Assembly (NCBI GenBank): GCA_017554145.1
Contig: JAFZIZ010000004.1
Coordinates: 62,001 to 126,000 of the forward strand
DNA from: Prevotella sp.
GTDB lineage: Bacteria; Bacteroidota; Bacteroidia; Bacteroidales; Bacteroidaceae
DNA length: 64,000 bases
Direction of reading: 5' to 3'
Shown here: positions 5,083-25,130 of the stretch, piece after piece
How positions within the stretch are numbered: the first letter of the stretch is position 1
Layout of the letters: each line of letters starts with the position of its first letter
Made by a program: the position numbers and the translations under genes
The notes under the pieces: generated by a model
The model's input: only the letters and a program-made list of their open reading frames with translations
The model's database searches: none
Told to the model about the DNA's origin: nothing

Positions 5083-8000
5083 ATGAAAAAGAAGACTCTA
5101 ACCATTATTGCAGTAATGCTGTTTATACCTATGTGGATATTTGGACAAGATTATCGTGCACTGTGGAATAAGGTGAAAGATGCTGAGGAGAAAGATCTTC
5201 CCCAGACAGCCATCACTCATCTTACCTCTATTGAGGAGAAAGCACGGAAGGAAGGTGTTTATGGACAATTATTAAAAGCAACGTTATATCGTGCACAGAT
5301 GCAGGCAAACGTTGCTCCAGACTCCTTGCAGCCAGCTGTGGAGAGACTGGTCCAGTTGACTAAAAAGGAAAAAGATGTGGCGCTTCGTTCAGTCTATGCG
5401 ACAGTTCTTTATTCTATCTACAGGAATAATCGGTCTCTTTCTGACGACTGGGAGAAGATTTGTGAGGAGTATCGTGTGATTGCATTGTCATCTCCAGAGA
5501 CACTGGCAAAAGTGAAAAATGCCATATATGAACCTTTTGTGGAACATGAAAAAGACAGTTATATCTATGAGGATGACCTGCTTCATATTATTGGCATGGA
5601 GTTTGGTGCATGGCAGTGGATGCATGATTATTATGAAAAGGCAGGTAATCGTCGGGCAGCTTGCTTGACGGCTCTTGAATTATTGGAGGAGAAAAGAGGA
5701 GATGATATGGAGAAACTCCAAGAGAGTAGTTATATACGTCAGTTGGATTCCCTTATCAACAAGTATGGCGATTTAGACGAAGCTGGTGAGGTGGCTTTGG
5801 AGCGTTATGCATATATGAAAAATCATACGAATGCCACTCCCGCAGAAGAGATGGACTATCTCAACCAAGCGATAGAGAAGTGGAGCAATTGGAAAAGAAT
5901 CTCTCAGCTGAAGAATAACCGAAAGCAATTGGTAGCTTCTAAATTCACCGCAGATATTCCCTACCGCGTTCAAACGACGGGAAAGGAGCAGACGATAAAG
6001 TTGAGAAGCCTGCGCCATCTGTCTTCGCTCACGATGCGAGTCTATCGTACCAAACTTCAGGGCGACGATGATGTGAGCATCAATTATAAGAAAGACCTGG
6101 AAAAAGTTATGAAAGATGCCGTAGAGGTGAAAGAGGCTTTCCAAAAGCGTACCTTCTCACCCTATGAGGAATACAATGTGTTTGAAGACTCGATTCCTTT
6201 GATTGGTTTGCCTAATGGTGTCTATATGCTGGAATTCTCCACAGAACCGAATACAAGTGTTGATCGTGTCCTTTATTATGTCACCAATCTGCGGGTACTT
6301 GCCACAGGCAGACAGGAAGCAAACATGCGCTATGTGGTTGTCGATGCCATGACGGGTCAGCCTGTGAAAGGTGCTAAGGTTAAGATACAGGCTAACCGTT
6401 ATGACGACAAGGAAAACCGGAAGACTTTGACGACGAATGCCGCTGGTGAGACATTTTATACTTTCACCAAGGGAACATGGCATAGTATTTTTGTCTATAC
6501 AGATGATGACAAGGCTTGTCCTTCCATCAATTCTGGTGATAATTTCAGTTTCAACGATGACAATAGTAGAAGGGAATATACCCAGATATATACTGATCGT
6601 GCCATCTATCGTCCGGGACAGCAGGTACACATGGCTGCTATCATTTATGCGAGGGAGAACTATATTGAGCATTCTGTCGTTGCTGGCAAGGCTGTGACGG
6701 CGCAGTTGCGCGATGCCAATAGTAAACTGGTGGCAGAGCAAAAACTGACTACCGACGAGTTTGGAAATTGTTCTGCGACCTTCACATTGCCCACAGGACT
6801 TCGTAATGGTAATTTCAGTATCCGTTTGAATGGTGCGTCAGAGTCTTTCCGAGTAGAAGAATACAAGCGTCCGACATTCGAGCTGTCGTTCTCAGAGTAT
6901 AAGGAATCCTATCAGGCAGGAGATACTGTAACGGTTCAGGGCAAGGCGTTGAGTTATGCAGGTGTTCCTGTTCAGGATGCGAAGGTGAAGTATACTGTTC
7001 GTCGCCGTGTCGCCTATTGGTGGATGAGTTACTCTTGGTATTGGGGAGCTGGCTATTTCGGCAGAGGCAATCAGACAGAGGATATTTATGAAGGTGAGAC
7101 GACAACCAAGGATGATGGAACCTTCGATGTGAAGATGCCAATGATTCTGCCCGATGATGACAATAGGTCTCCGATGTTCTATAACTTCGTGGTGGAGGCG
7201 AATGTAACCGATCAGGCTGGTGAGACACATACAGGAACGAAGAGTTTGCCGTTGGGCACTCGTCCTACAGCACTTTCTTGCAGTCTGTCGCAGCGTATCC
7301 GTCGTGACCAGATACAGCCTGTTACTTTCTATCGTCGTAATTCGGCAGGTAGCGAAATTGAAGGAACCGTCCGCTATCGTCTTGACGAGGGTCAGTGGCA
7401 GACGGTTAAAGCGAATGCACCGATTGATGTCCTTTCCAGCAAGATTACCAGTGGTGAGCATCGTTTGGAGGCTGCCTGCGAGGGTGACTCTATTGATATG
7501 AAGTTTGTGATATTCAGTCTTGATGATAAGAAACCTGCTATCGAGACGAAAGACTGGTTCTATACGAGCGGTTCAAGATTCCAGAACGATGGTACACCAA
7601 TTACCATACAGGTTGGTTCTTCGGATCCTGATTTGTATATCGCATATGAGATTATTTCTGGTACGAAGGTGTTGGAGGAAGGCTTCATCCGTGAGAACCG
7701 TTCTCTGTGGAACAGGAAGTTCACCTATAAGGAAGAGTATGGCAACGGATTGCTGCTTACCTTCGCATGGGTAAAGAACGGTGTTGCCTATAAACATTCT
7801 ACGACTATCAGTCGTCCCGTTCCTGATAAACATCTGAAGTTGCAGTGGGAGACTTTCCGTGACCGTCTGAAACCAGGTCAGCAGGAGGAATGGAAACTGA
7901 GTATCAAGGATAAGGACGGAAAACCGGCTCCAGCTCAGTTGCTGGCAGTTCTCTATGACAAGAGTCTCGACCAGCTCGCCTCTCATTACTGGGGTCTCTA

Positions 8001-12782: not shown

Positions 12783-13645
12783 CAGTTGAGATAGACAACG
12801 GCAGCGGCTTCTGCTTTGGAGTGACCACGGCGATTCAGAAAGCCGAGGAGGAACTGGCCAAGGGCAACGCGCTCTATTGTCTGGGTGATATCGTGCACAA
12901 TGGTATGGAGTGTGAGCGATTGCGCCAGATGGGACTCATTACGATTAATCACGACGAGATGCGCAATCTGCGCAATGTGAAGGTGCTGCTCCGTGCTCAT
13001 GGCGAGCCGCCTGAGACCTACGCCCTTGCCCGTCGTAACCATATCGAGATTATCGATGCCACCTGCCCCGTGGTGTTGCAGTTGCAGAAGCGCATCAAGA
13101 AACAACATATTGCCAATTGCGAAGAGCCAATAGCCAATAGCCAAGTGGTGATCTTCGGCAAGAACGGTCATGCCGAGGTGCTGGGGCTGGTCGGTCAGAC
13201 GGGTGGCAAGGCGATAGTCATCGAGCAGTTTGAGGACGTGAAGCAACTGGACTTTTCGCGTGACATCTATCTCTATTCGCAGACCACGAAGAGTCTCGAC
13301 GAGTTCCACCGCATCATTGAGTACATCCAGCAGCATATCTCGCCCGATGTCACGTTCAAGAGTTTCGATACCATCTGCCGACAGGTGGCCAACCGCATGC
13401 CGAACATCTCCAGTTTCGCCACCAAGCACGACCTGATACTCTTCGTCTGCGGACGGAAGAGCTCTAACGGCAAGGTGTTGTTCAACGAGTGCCTGCGTGT
13501 CAATCCCAACAGCCATCTGATAGAGGGTCCTGCCGAGATCGACCCCTCGTGGCTTGAAGGCATCGAGACCGTTGGCATCTGTGGGGCCACCAGCACGCCC
13601 AAGTGGCTGATGGAGCAATGCCGCGATGCGTTGCAAGGACAATAA
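12779..13645 (+). CDS. ispH: 4-hydroxy-3-methylbut-2-enyl diphosphate reductase (IspH)
   Basis: 288 residues; last step of the MEP isoprenoid pathway, a [4Fe-4S] enzyme. Cluster cysteines are visible as Cys12 (GFCFGV), Cys96 (DATCPVV) and Cys200 (DTICRQ); His40 (DIVHN), His74 (RAHGE) and His131 (GHAEVLG) match the active-site histidines. Compared with the E. coli numbering I know (C96, H124), the spacing C96-H131 is 7 residues longer, and the extra stretch (about 111-122, IANCEEPIANSQ) is encoded by a heptamer repeat tract. The start overlaps meaB by ATGA. A strong terminator follows at 13656. Confidence 0.96.
   Translation: MTVEIDNGSGFCFGVTTAIQKAEEELAKGNALYCLGDIVHNGMECERLRQMGLITINHDEMRNLRNVKVLLRAHGEPPETYALARRNHIEIIDATCPVVLQLQKRIKKQHIANCEEPIANSQVVIFGKNGHAEVLGLVGQTGGKAIVIEQFEDVKQLDFSRDIYLYSQTTKSLDEFHRIIEYIQQHISPDVTFKSFDTICRQVANRMPNISSFATKHDLILFVCGRKSSNGKVLFNECLRVNPNSHLIEGPAEIDPSWLEGIETVGICGATSTPKWLMEQCRDALQGQ
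13111..13147. repeat. Heptamer tract inside ispH
   Basis: Period-7 degenerate tandem repeat with units AGCCAAT, AGCCAAT, AGCCAAG preceded by weaker copies. It is in-frame and encodes IANCEEPIANSQ. Confidence 0.75.
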
Positions 13646-13806: not shown

Positions 13807-14961
13807 ATGAAACAAAGAACTTTACTTCTAACTTTGGTTGCCCTGCTCGGCATCATGCAGGCGAGGGCTGACGTGACTATCAACGCGACAAACTTCCCGG
13901 ATGAGAATTTCCGTAACTGGCTGCTTGTGCAGGACTATGGCAGTGACGGTGTGATTACCGATGATGAGATTGCGGGGATTACAGAAATATATGTAATTAA
14001 TACAAGCATCGCAAGCCTCAAGGGTATAGAGTTCTTTACGGCGCTGACAGGGTTGTACTGCTTCAACAACCAGTTGACCTCGCTCGACGTGTCGAAGAGC
14101 ACGGCGCTGACAGAGTTGGCGTGCCACAACAACCAACTGACCTCTCTCGACGTGTCGAAGAACACGGCGCTGACAGTTTTGTCCTGCTTCGACAACCAAC
14201 TGACGTCTCTCGACGTGTCGAAGAACACGGCGCTGACAGAGTTGCACTGCAGCGACAACCAACTGACCTCTCTCGACATGTCGAAGAATACGGCGCTGAC
14301 AACGTTGCGCTGCTACACCAACCAGCTGACCTCGCTTGACGTATCGAAGAATACGGTGCTGACAGAGTTGTCCTGCGACAACAACCAGTTGACCTCTCTC
14401 GACGTGTCGAAGAGCACGGCGCTGAAATCGTTGTACTGCTACAACAACCAGTTGACCTCTCTCGACGTGTCGAAGAACACGGCGCTGAAAGCGTTGTACT
14501 GCCAAGACAACCAGTTGACCTCGCTCGATGTATCGAAGAACACGGCGCTGATATATCTGGCCTGCAGTGACAACCAACTGGCCTCGCTCGACGTGTCAAA
14601 GAATACGGCATTGTGGTATTTGTCGTTCGATCAGAACAAAATCAAAGGCAGCGGCATGGATGCACTCGTGGAGAGTCTGCCGAATGTAAGTGAAAGTAGT
14701 ATGTATGTCATTTACAACGAAAACGAGGGGAACGTGATGACTACTGTGCAGGTGGCTGCCGCGAAGGCGAAGGGCTGGACACCTTATTACTACGACGGAG
14801 AAGATTGGTTGGAATATGCCGGCAGCGATCCTTCGGGCATCGAAGAATTGAAGAATTCAAAAGTTGAAGGCCTGAAGTACTACGACCTGCAGGGTCGTCA
14901 CGTCGTGAATCCGACGAAGGGTGTGTATATCCTGAACGGCAAGAAAGTCGTGATTAAGTGA
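13807..14961 (+). CDS. Secreted leucine-rich repeat protein (internalin-like) with C-terminal sorting-like tail
   Basis: 384 residues. Signal peptide MKQRTLLLTLVALLGIMQAR then AD; a short module TINATNFPDENFRNWLL with an EF-hand-like DYGSDGVITDDEI; then about nine tandem 21-residue LRRs of the form LDVSKNTALxxLxCxxNQLTS (about 90-280). The tail YYDLQGRHVVNPTKGVYILN then GKKVVIK closely matches the end of the BspA-like protein at 53644-55437 and resembles short type A type IX sorting signals. Repeats are 63 bp and nearly identical in DNA, with changes concentrated in the codons flanking the Cys. Likely surface-exposed or secreted, ligand unknown. Own promoter and terminator. Confidence 0.9.
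   Translation: MKQRTLLLTLVALLGIMQARADVTINATNFPDENFRNWLLVQDYGSDGVITDDEIAGITEIYVINTSIASLKGIEFFTALTGLYCFNNQLTSLDVSKSTALTELACHNNQLTSLDVSKNTALTVLSCFDNQLTSLDVSKNTALTELHCSDNQLTSLDMSKNTALTTLRCYTNQLTSLDVSKNTVLTELSCDNNQLTSLDVSKSTALKSLYCYNNQLTSLDVSKNTALKALYCQDNQLTSLDVSKNTALIYLACSDNQLASLDVSKNTALWYLSFDQNKIKGSGMDALVESLPNVSESSMYVIYNENEGNVMTTVQVAAAKAKGWTPYYYDGEDWLEYAGSDPSGIEELKNSKVEGLKYYDLQGRHVVNPTKGVYILNGKKVVIK
14074..14640 (+). repeat. Nine tandem 63-bp LRR-coding repeats
   Basis: Each unit encodes a 21-residue LRR. The LDVSKNTAL and NQLTS portions are almost invariant at DNA level, while the codons on either side of the Cys differ between units. Confidence 0.85.
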
Positions 14962-23120: not shown

Positions 23121-23910
23121 CCGAGACTTCAGCCTTAATATGAGGATGAGGGTCATAACCTTCGAGTTCGAAGTCCTCATATTGGAAGTCGAAGATGCTC
23201 TTTACATCAGGATTGATCTTCATCGTAGGCAGTGGACGAGGCTCACGCGTGAGTTGTAACTTCGCCTGCTCGATATGATTCAGATAGAGGTGTGTATCAC
23301 CCGTAGTATGGATGAAGTCGCCAGCCTTATAGCCTGTTACCTGTGCCATCATCTGCAGAAGGAGGGCATACGAGGCGATATTGAACGGAACACCGAGGAA
23401 AGTGTCTGCACTGCGCTGATAGAGTTGGAGCGACAAGCGTCCGTCGGCGACATAGAACTGGAAGATCGTATGACAAGGGGGCAATGCCATCTTGTTGACC
23501 TCCGCCACATTCCATGCCGATACAATCATACGACGGGAGTCAGGATTGCTCTTCAACTGGTCGACCACATACTGAATCTGGTCGATAGTACCACCGTTAT
23601 AGTCAGGCCATGAGCGCCATTGGTGTCCATAGACGGGTCCTAAGTCACCGTTCTCATCTGCCCATTCGTCCCAGATACTCACCTTATGGTCCTTGAGATA
23701 CTGGATGTTCGTATCACCACGGAGGAACCAAAGCAGTTCGTAGATGATGGACTTCAAGTGTAGTTTCTTGGTGGTCAGCAAGGGGAAACCGTCATCAAGG
23801 TTATAACGGCTCTGTGTTCCGAAGATGCTGATAGTACCAGTTCCTGTGCGGTCGCCCTTTTGCGTACCTTCTGTCAGGATGCGATTAAGTATGTCTAAAT
23901 ATTGTTTCAT
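23116..23910 (-). CDS. thyA: Thymidylate synthase
   Basis: 264 residues, the classic ThyA length. Catalytic Cys in [32 protein letters not shown] before it, and the dUMP-binding [20 protein letters not shown] and HLYLNHIEQ motifs are intact. Converts dUMP to dTMP with methylene-tetrahydrofolate. Starts with a 4-nt overlap (ATGA) on rsmF and is followed by folA. Confidence 0.97.
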
Positions 23911-25130
23911 ATCTGTTTAAGTATAGGTTCGTATTCGTTGGGTAAATAAGTTGTTTTGATTCTCCAAGGTTTGGGGTAGAGGTTGTTGGCGCGATTGCCG
24001 ATATTCTTCACCTGTCCTAAGGGTATTCCCATAAAGGTTACCTCAATGATGCCGCAAGGGGTCTCATCGGATAATACGAGCGCTTCCCCCCGCAGATAGG
24101 CGATGGCTTGTTGATAGGATAGGGCTACAGAGAACTTTACTTCAGGTTTGTTATTTGTTCCCAATGTGGGAATGTTTTGTTCCCAACGTGGGAATATTTT
24201 GTTCCCAACGTGGGAATAATTGGCACTTTCTGTACTCTTTTTCCTTTTCTTCAATACACACATAAAGAGTCCTTCACCACGAGAAATGCCAGGAATGAAG
24301 CGGTAGACCGGTTCTGTGAATCCTTCGAGCAGGGAACCAGTAATATTCCACTCGGGTTTCGTCTCCACTTTTAGCACTTCCGCCTCATAGTTATCAAGCA
24401 TCCAACGGATGTTCTCTTCGTTCTCCTTTGTATTAAAGGTACACGTACTATATATAAAGAGACCACCCTCGTTGAGACATTCCCAAGCGTCGCTGACAAT
24501 CTCGCGTTGCAGTCGCCAGCACTTCTCGACATTCTGAGGACTCCATTCACGGATAGTTGCCTCGTCTTTGCGGAACATTCCCTCACCAGAACAAGGCACA
24601 TCGCAGAGGATGACGTCAAAGCGTAACTTTGACTTTCTGTAATCCTTGGGGTATTTATTTGTGACGGTACTGTTATCCCAGCCCCATTTCTGCATATTCT
24701 CCGACAGAATATTCGCCCTGTTGCGAATGGGTTCGTTGCTATAGAGCACGCAGTCTTCAGGTAAAGCCGAGCGGAGTAGAGTAGACTTTCCACCAGGAGC
24801 GGCACACATATCTAAAGTTAAGAGATGAGAGTTAATAGTTAAGAGTTGACGCAAGACTTCATCAAGGAACATCGAGGCGGCTTCTTGCACATAGTAGCAG
24901 CCGGCATGGAAGAGGGGATCCATCGTGAAGTTAGGACGCTTCTTCAGATAGTAGGCATGGCGGCACCAAGGCACTTGTTCACCGTCAATCGGTTCTCCTG
25001 CAGGCCTCTTCGGGTTGAGACGAATGCTCACAGGAGCCTCTTCCTCGAACGATTGCAAGTATCGTTTGAAGCGCTCTTCGCCCATCAGTTGGCGCGTATA
25101 TGAGATGAACTCAGCAGGTAATTCCGTCAT
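23907..25130 (-). CDS. RsmF/NOL1-NOP2-Sun type rRNA (cytosine-5) methyltransferase
   Basis: 407 residues. SAM motif [13 protein letters not shown], motif [22 protein letters not shown], and motif [18 protein letters not shown] (both catalytic Cys) are present, followed by a C-terminal RNA-binding region. It methylates cytosines in 16S rRNA; precise site unknown. Two repeat insertions are in-frame: a heptamer tract encoding [10 protein letters not shown] right before motif I (about 94-106), and a triple 22-bp palindromic array (about 303-325; [20 protein letters not shown]) between catalytic and C-terminal parts. The -7 element lies 7 nt from the ATG. Confidence 0.92.
24157..24222. repeat. Three 22-bp palindromic repeats inside rsmF
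   Basis: Cores TTCCCAATGTGGGAA, TTCCCAACGTGGGAA, TTCCCAACGTGGGAA begin exactly 22 bp apart (24158, 24180, 24202), each with 6-bp arms around a 3-nt centre. Total 66 bp, so the frame is kept; each copy is read in a different frame (SHVGN, FPRWE, PTLGT). Confidence 0.95.
24812..24849. repeat. Heptamer tract inside rsmF
   Basis: AGTTAAG, AGATGAG, AGTTAAT, AGTTAAG, AGTTGAC with period 7, in-frame on the minus strand. Confidence 0.85.

Follow-up and report, generated by a model that had tools for sequence, protein, structure and literature searches.

The gene for the 16S rRNA methyltransferase RsmF in a Prevotella genome contains, in frame, three short palindromes repeated in tandem every 22 bp. 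The locus raises the question of whether this array belongs to the protein, which it would extend by a peptide, or to the DNA, as one copy of an element found at other sites, and of what could have kept its sequence and its spacing.

The array in rsmF and its relatives in the same genome

The window, the whole 64-kb stretch of DNA that was analysed, contains three copies of the core at up to two mismatches, all of them in the rsmF array (Table 1), a number reached in 0 of 100 shuffles. The units are spaced by exactly 22 and 22 bp. In the protein, Pfam places the domains RsmF_N at residues 4–84, RsmB-F at 97–293 and PUA at 342–391; by arithmetic from the coordinates, the array codes for residues ~304–326, the linker between RsmB-F and PUA. 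A preliminary description had reported three palindromic 22-bp repeats, one with a C-to-T change, in frame in an inter-domain linker of an rRNA methyltransferase and read as three different peptides (SHVGN, FPRWE and PTLGT). The repeats are indeed found at 24154–24219, the Pfam matches and coordinates confirm the linker, and the peptides are as given there.

Table 1. Position of the array, its units and its spacers in the window, with the host gene
Feature	Position	Strand	Remarks
Three-unit array, 22-bp period	24154..24219		TRF 24154-24218, 3.0 copies, score 116
Unit 1, palindrome TTCCCA-ATG-TGGGAA	24158..24172		Core TTCCCAATGTGGGAA, with one C-to-T
Unit 2, palindrome TTCCCA-ACG-TGGGAA	24180..24194		Core TTCCCAACGTGGGAA
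Unit 3, palindrome TTCCCA-ACG-TGGGAA	24202..24216		Core TTCCCAACGTGGGAA
Spacer TGTTTTG	24173..24179		Class YRWWWYR
Spacer TATTTTG	24195..24201		Class YRWWWYR
Host ORF, 16S rRNA methyltransferase RsmF	23907..25130	-	407 aa

The array is missing from most of the 30 orthologous rsmF loci, own gene included: an intact triplet is present in the own gene and in one other locus (L172), and a decayed one in a third (L165). Across these loci the peptide shows no conservation, and its being a protein domain is rejected. The same linker carries other arms in other species, a GTCCGA triplet in L166 and a GAACCC-like triplet in L168. The window also holds tandem repeats of other kinds. Nine arrays of 7-bp units start at 13112, 17839, 19132, 24816, 35144, 43091, 44060, 51289 and 51760, one of them (24816–24847) inside the same rsmF gene, and 7 is the commonest tandem period in the genus loci scanned (178 arrays). 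At 14038–14609, a 63-bp repeat in about nine copies has a consensus that, read directly, resembles a leucine-rich repeat (TALTELSCYNNQLTSLDVSKN).

Whether the core was absent elsewhere in the genome, a point raised with the preliminary description, is answered by the draft assembly (2.8 Mb in 38 contigs, 83.5% complete, 5.1% contamination): 23 exact units form eight arrays, seven triplets and one doublet, all at 22 bp and none solitary. Allowing one mismatch gave 27 matches per strand, versus 13 for a reversed-pattern control, and none of the four one-mismatch sites lies 22 bp from an array. One triplet, with unlike centres, is on contig C35 (L015, C35:3200-7200), where 4,001 bp are 100% identical to a locus (L113) of the metagenome bin RGIG7649, so that the contig may be a contaminant in one or other bin. 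The doublet (C18:154245-154281; L013 3046-3082) lies in a methyltransferase-like gene, and the ORFs before and after it are in frame 2 and then frame 1, a change expected if one 22-bp unit is missing; the orthologue of this gene in L162, with a THUMP-like domain, has three in-frame units. The doublet may be a repeat collapse in the draft assembly, and its place across a frame break makes an effect of copy number visible. A second-type triplet, CGGACT-NNN-AGTCCG, was seen on the same contig near 207400 (L280, ~7400-7470), also with period 22 and with its third unit partly mutated.

Distribution, placement and unit number

The rsmF array belongs to a family dispersed in the genus and is more than a one-gene insertion. 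Arrays are carried by 66 of 398 genomes of the genus, own included, a carrier being any genome with a two-unit match at no more than two mismatches, and the control gave 0; the highest count is that of genome G179 (41 forward and 26 reverse matches). Presence is patchy between related species. Across the order, the three-unit pattern matched the own genome and 0 of 343 others, the 344 genomes comprising 339 from other families, three from other genera of the family, the own and one more of the genus. A scan of named genomes returned at least 117 array stretches; among the matches listed (80), all are labelled Prevotella, Prevotellaceae, Xylanibacter or Bacteroidaceae, and many come from ruminants. 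Named strains among the carriers that are not labelled as bins include Xylanibacter ruminicola Ga6B6 and D31d, Prevotella ruminicola KHT3 and Prevotella sp. ne3005. Viral contigs, which the search covered, are rejected as the main reservoir, with two matches that have array flanks in common. No published description of the repeat came up in searches of the open-access literature. The initial interpretation as palindromic, in-frame 22-bp repeats of a linker stands for this copy, but it has to be widened to a family dispersed through the genus and to several arm families with the same 22-bp spacing.

After deduplication, 151 places contain three units in 110 cases, four in 26, five in four, six in one, two in four and a single unit in six, the low numbers being under-counted because most places were found by two- or three-unit patterns. 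Placement was judged by a simple ORF test, with no gene finder, in which an array runs through a gene if the ORF extends for at least 60 codons on both sides. By this measure the 146 arrays of at least two units, the window's own left out, divide into 27 through an ORF, 103 intergenic or other, three near an ORF end, one apparently frameshifted and 12 too close to a sequence end; of the 130 arrays in the first two groups, 103 are intergenic and 27 run through genes. With the same kind of simple ORF calls, the median distance to a facing gene end is 81 bp from 3′ ends (n=89) versus 230 bp from 5′ ends (n=75).

It had been proposed that arrays have three copies because only three keep the reading frame, which would make copy numbers in genes multiples of three. 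Three units are found in 24 of 27 arrays in genes, as predicted, but also in 76 of 103 intergenic ones (Fisher p 0.13); because three is the mode between genes too, the frame does not explain the number, and the proposal was not borne out. Two of the three four-unit arrays in genes (L029, L031) carry a further unit at 21 bp. Arrays can be tolerated within genes, since 3 × 22 = 66 and most frames read through: on average 4.57 of the six frames are stop-free in intergenic triplets (n=76) and 4.46 in those within genes (n=24), versus 2.53 in 59-mers taken 200 bp away. The in-gene arrays checked against Pfam occupy linkers, in RsmF, in a CobB-like protein (between CbiA and GATase_3) and in a THUMP-like protein before PG_1098. 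Three units is the most frequent number but not a fixed one. When G179 was sampled with single exact units, the places listed included 18 arrays, which have one, two, three, four and five units in 3, 3, 8, 1 and 3 cases; none of the 18 meets the 60-codon test, L322 having 54 and 90 codons.

Conserved arms, variable centres and the 22-bp period

Species with flanks 68–98% identical have arrays at corresponding positions, which permits a direct comparison of their parts. In five independent orthologous pairs of equal unit number, with flanks 93–98% identical, arms differ at 0/204 positions, centres at 10/51 and spacers at 7/84. Centres outpace the flanks; spacers do so weakly, at 7/84 versus ~2–7% for the flanks. 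This count was used instead of a wider set of eight close pairs (arms 2/336, centres 23/84, spacers 25/140), in which L103/L096 is poorly anchored and three of the pairs draw on only three loci. At 80–90% flank identity, 17 pairs that are not independent of each other give 2/624, 90/156 and 97/245, respectively. Spacers follow the pattern YRWWWYR, with ends T..G in 114 and C..A in 109 of 323, and the commonest centre triplet is ACG or its complement. Centres of one genome resemble each other more closely than those of different genomes do (0.30 versus 0.20, 0/1000 permutations; 58 arrays, with 19 genome labels assigned from listed names), a likeness inflated because the own arrays L009 and L012 have partly shared flanks.

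Arm conservation is inflated in part by ascertainment, since exact or near-exact arms served to find most of the loci. Two less biased samples agree with it. In G179, 50 of 52 units in the 18 arrays are exact, though extension permitted four mismatches. The second sample is an acyltransferase whose 30 orthologues were chosen by N-terminal protein only; one is cut by a contig end, which leaves 29 readable. Its array sits in the loop after ‘GILxAR’. Seven of the 29 have TTCCCA-type arrays, and five of these are intact with all units exact, in the own gene and in four other species that are 72–82% identical in protein; the remaining two are an array with mutated arms and one interrupted by another hairpin insert. 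At the same codon, 22-bp triplets with other arms are found in four further species, GTTTCC in L221, CGGACT-like in L211 and L212 and CGCACT-like in L213, and 18 of the 29 were judged array-free by eye. Arrays may be polyphyletic on the acyltransferase tree, which recombination of gene halves may confuse. In the loop of L208, two TTCCCA units are followed by a ~60-bp hairpin element, and the frame is open. The preservation of a single arm sequence while it is read in three different frames places the constraint on the DNA and makes selection on the peptide unlikely: arms stay fixed while the intervening bases turn over, even in coding genes.

The period extends beyond this arm sequence. An any-sequence scan for palindromic triplets covered 2.58 Mb of partly redundant, array-rich sequence, with N excluded, exact TTCCCA set aside and a mirror control. 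Period 22 gave 11 matches (control 0), or eight distinct arrays, as L166/L251 and L249/L221 are each one array counted twice and L209 is a mutated TTCCCA array. Period 21 gave eight (control 5), 18 two (control 1) and 28 one (control 2), with 0 at 19, 20 and 23–27; the mirror control alone had nine matches at 16 and eight at 24. The reading of some arm families as 6-3-6 or 6-5-6 depends on register. Other palindromic arrays were noted in passing: CTTATT/AATAAG palindromes with period 21 within ~150 bp of a TTCCCA array (L051, L062, L064, L079, L100, L108, L127 and L146); a 22-bp array GCACAACAG/CTGTTGTGC with one paired change in G045 (L360 13182-13243); and a 22-bp GTTTCCC/GGGAAAC array in G457, of another genus of the family (L330 2163-2248).

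Among intergenic tandem repeats of any sequence with periods of 16–28, 22 is again favoured, with 33 summed over eight genomes; the other sums are 11 at 21, 10 at 16, seven at 18, four at 23, three at 20 and one each at 19 and 24, and shorter periods such as 7 and 9 are still commoner than 22. These stretches were mostly not array-selected, the window, L249, L251 and L261 being so. Each of seven genomes of the family has 2–7 such 22-bp repeats, and G399, of another family, has 0. Because many of them are non-palindromic, the 22-bp period may come from a duplication process.

Candidate explanations

Phased protein binding and a short mobile repeat, the two guesses in the preliminary description, emerged as the leading explanations, the first favoured tentatively and the second held unlikely. 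The favoured reading, short of an even chance, is that the arrays are dispersed, helically phased three-site arrays for a putative sequence-specific dimeric DNA-binding protein, with the rsmF copy a tolerated passenger, 66 bp long and in frame in a variable linker. Each 15–17-bp palindrome would probably be bound by one dimer; with a DNA helix of ~10.5 bp per turn, three dimers would lie about two turns apart and on nearly one face of the DNA. The fit is in the fixed half-sites, the freer centres and the two-turn spacing common to unrelated arms, all as expected of dimers side by side. Like operator arrays, the loci combine conserved palindromic half-sites with helical phasing. The lambdoid OR and OL operators likewise have three ~17-bp palindromes about two turns apart; they stand beside one regulator gene, whereas here many sites are dispersed, with no such placement. 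Binding might help to organise the nucleoid, or regulate locally close to the 3′ ends of genes. Several observations speak against this reading: the unit number is not fixed (one to five in G179), 22-bp tandem repeats of mostly non-palindromic sequence are common between genes, spacers change little faster than flanks, the mirror control of the triplet scan has matches of its own at 16 and 24, and the patchiness between related species also fits a mobile repeat. If arms do mark a binding site, the array may point to a novel DNA-recognition system in rumen bacteria, and it gives a concrete bait for finding it. An extension, rather unlikely, would make the triplets of Prevotella and near relatives genome-specific, each species having arms of its own and a putative protein to read them; whole triplets at fixed sites, even in genes, would have switched arms while site and phase were kept.

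The mobile alternative posits a non-autonomous palindromic repeat of REP or MITE type, which an enzyme acting in trans would spread and which would land for the most part downstream of genes, at times within linkers that tolerate it. It accounts for the dispersal and patchiness, for the mostly intergenic placement near gene 3′ ends with some arrays inside genes, and for larger repeated flanks in G179, where four arrays (L313, L316, L323 and L324, with 2, 1, 5 and 3 units) have flank stretches ~82–89% identical and other tandem repeats beside them. REP/RAYT elements are short palindromes present many times per genome, usually downstream of genes but in some cases within ORFs (PMC3733652, PMC3116915, PMC8266576). 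REP-type repeats are palindromes of 20–40 bp in many dispersed copies, and the arrays match this with a 15–17-bp core in a 22-bp unit; they differ in forming direct arrays at a fixed 22 bp, in lacking a GTAG/CGTC-like tag in the flank profile (284 flanks), and in having no Y1 link in the sample. Y1 (RAYT/IS200) genes are present in 12 of 20 carriers versus 14 of 20 array-free genomes, and eight of the 20 carriers, G179, G094 and G162 among them, lack any Y1 (PF01797) gene; Y1-matching proteins of ~260–300 aa looked commoner among carriers. TTCCCA units and palindromic triplets at 21 or 22 bp were both absent from 14 regions around Y1-matching genes, 13 from carriers and one from an array-free genome. 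With neither a carrier association nor an array by these genes, a Y1/RAYT transposase is rejected as the current driver.

The flanks also weigh against mobility. Beyond ~5 AT-rich bases (A/G at -1, T at -2, A/T from -3 to -5) and weak GC at -11/-12 and -18/-19, the 284 flanks have no common ends, and left and right flanks do not covary over 142 arrays. Terminal inverted repeats of the MITE type are not shared by the arrays, though some in G179 do share longer flanks. Neither a clean empty site nor a target duplication turned up, the array-free orthologues differing around the site. Because spacers differ between copies, most arrays are not recent copies of one another.

The nearest known kinds are REP/RAYT, BrickBuilt and the Rickettsia palindromic elements. 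The last are ~100–150 bp long, larger than the 66 bp of three palindromes with identical arms seen here. They resemble the rsmF array in being palindromic repeats in frame within protein genes, as mentioned in PMC3733652. BrickBuilt of Porphyromonas gingivalis is a 23-nt tandem repeat in 19 dispersed elements with strain-variable unit number and predicted stem-loops; its leader and tail have terminal inverted repeats, its units number up to 22.8, and it is described as found between genes only, and 41-, 23- and 22-nt tandem repeats are mentioned for strain W83 (PMC4596501). It shares with the arrays a Bacteroidales host, a tandem unit of about two helical turns, dispersal and variable unit number; the arrays differ by a period of 22, palindromic units, usually three, and occurrence in genes as well. 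They have no shared ends overall, although G179 has larger repeated flanks.

A minisatellite, in which 22-bp units are gained and lost by slippage at hairpins and arms are matched by template switching with no function involved, is improbable, more so than a mobile repeat. Unit numbers do differ between close orthologues (4 versus 3, 6 versus 4 and 3 versus 4) and among the G179 copies with partly shared flanks, the centre orientation tends to be common to the units of an array (the same in 193 unit pairs, different in 42), and many unrelated 22-bp tandem repeats lie in intergenic DNA. Against it stand the persistence of three as the mode, the clustering of palindromic triplets with different sequences at 22 bp, and the arms themselves: inside a genome, no joint drift of arms into a different matched sequence was seen, although the centres and spacers that go with those arms do vary.

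Least probable is an RNA element near the ends of transcripts, in the form of tandem hairpins or a single long hairpin. In the window array the plus strand does fold well (-38 kcal/mol, z -6.4 versus shuffles), giving a single long stem interrupted by 3x3 internal loops; folding of the coding-sense strand is weaker (-23.6, z -3.3, still better than shuffles), and YR spacer ends would extend stems. A strand-specific function is rejected: next to tandem genes the arrays favour neither orientation (16 versus 16 by spacer, 18 versus 15 by centre), and 119 triplets show no pairing covariation across the hairpin, with Watson–Crick pairing depleted at loop positions. The better-folding T..G spacer strand is antisense in 18 of 20 in-gene arrays with a call, a bias that stop-codon avoidance may also explain, and an Rfam family is rejected, with no match in 23950-24450.

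A separate observation concerns genes near the arrays. Genes with a BT4734-like N-terminal or DUF6078 domain, absent from comparison sequence of six genomes (1.55 Mb, for the most part from other species), are present in 10 of 117 array loci (L058, L059, L062, L064, L065, L084, L090, L095, L115 and L116), at 17–1716 bp from the array.
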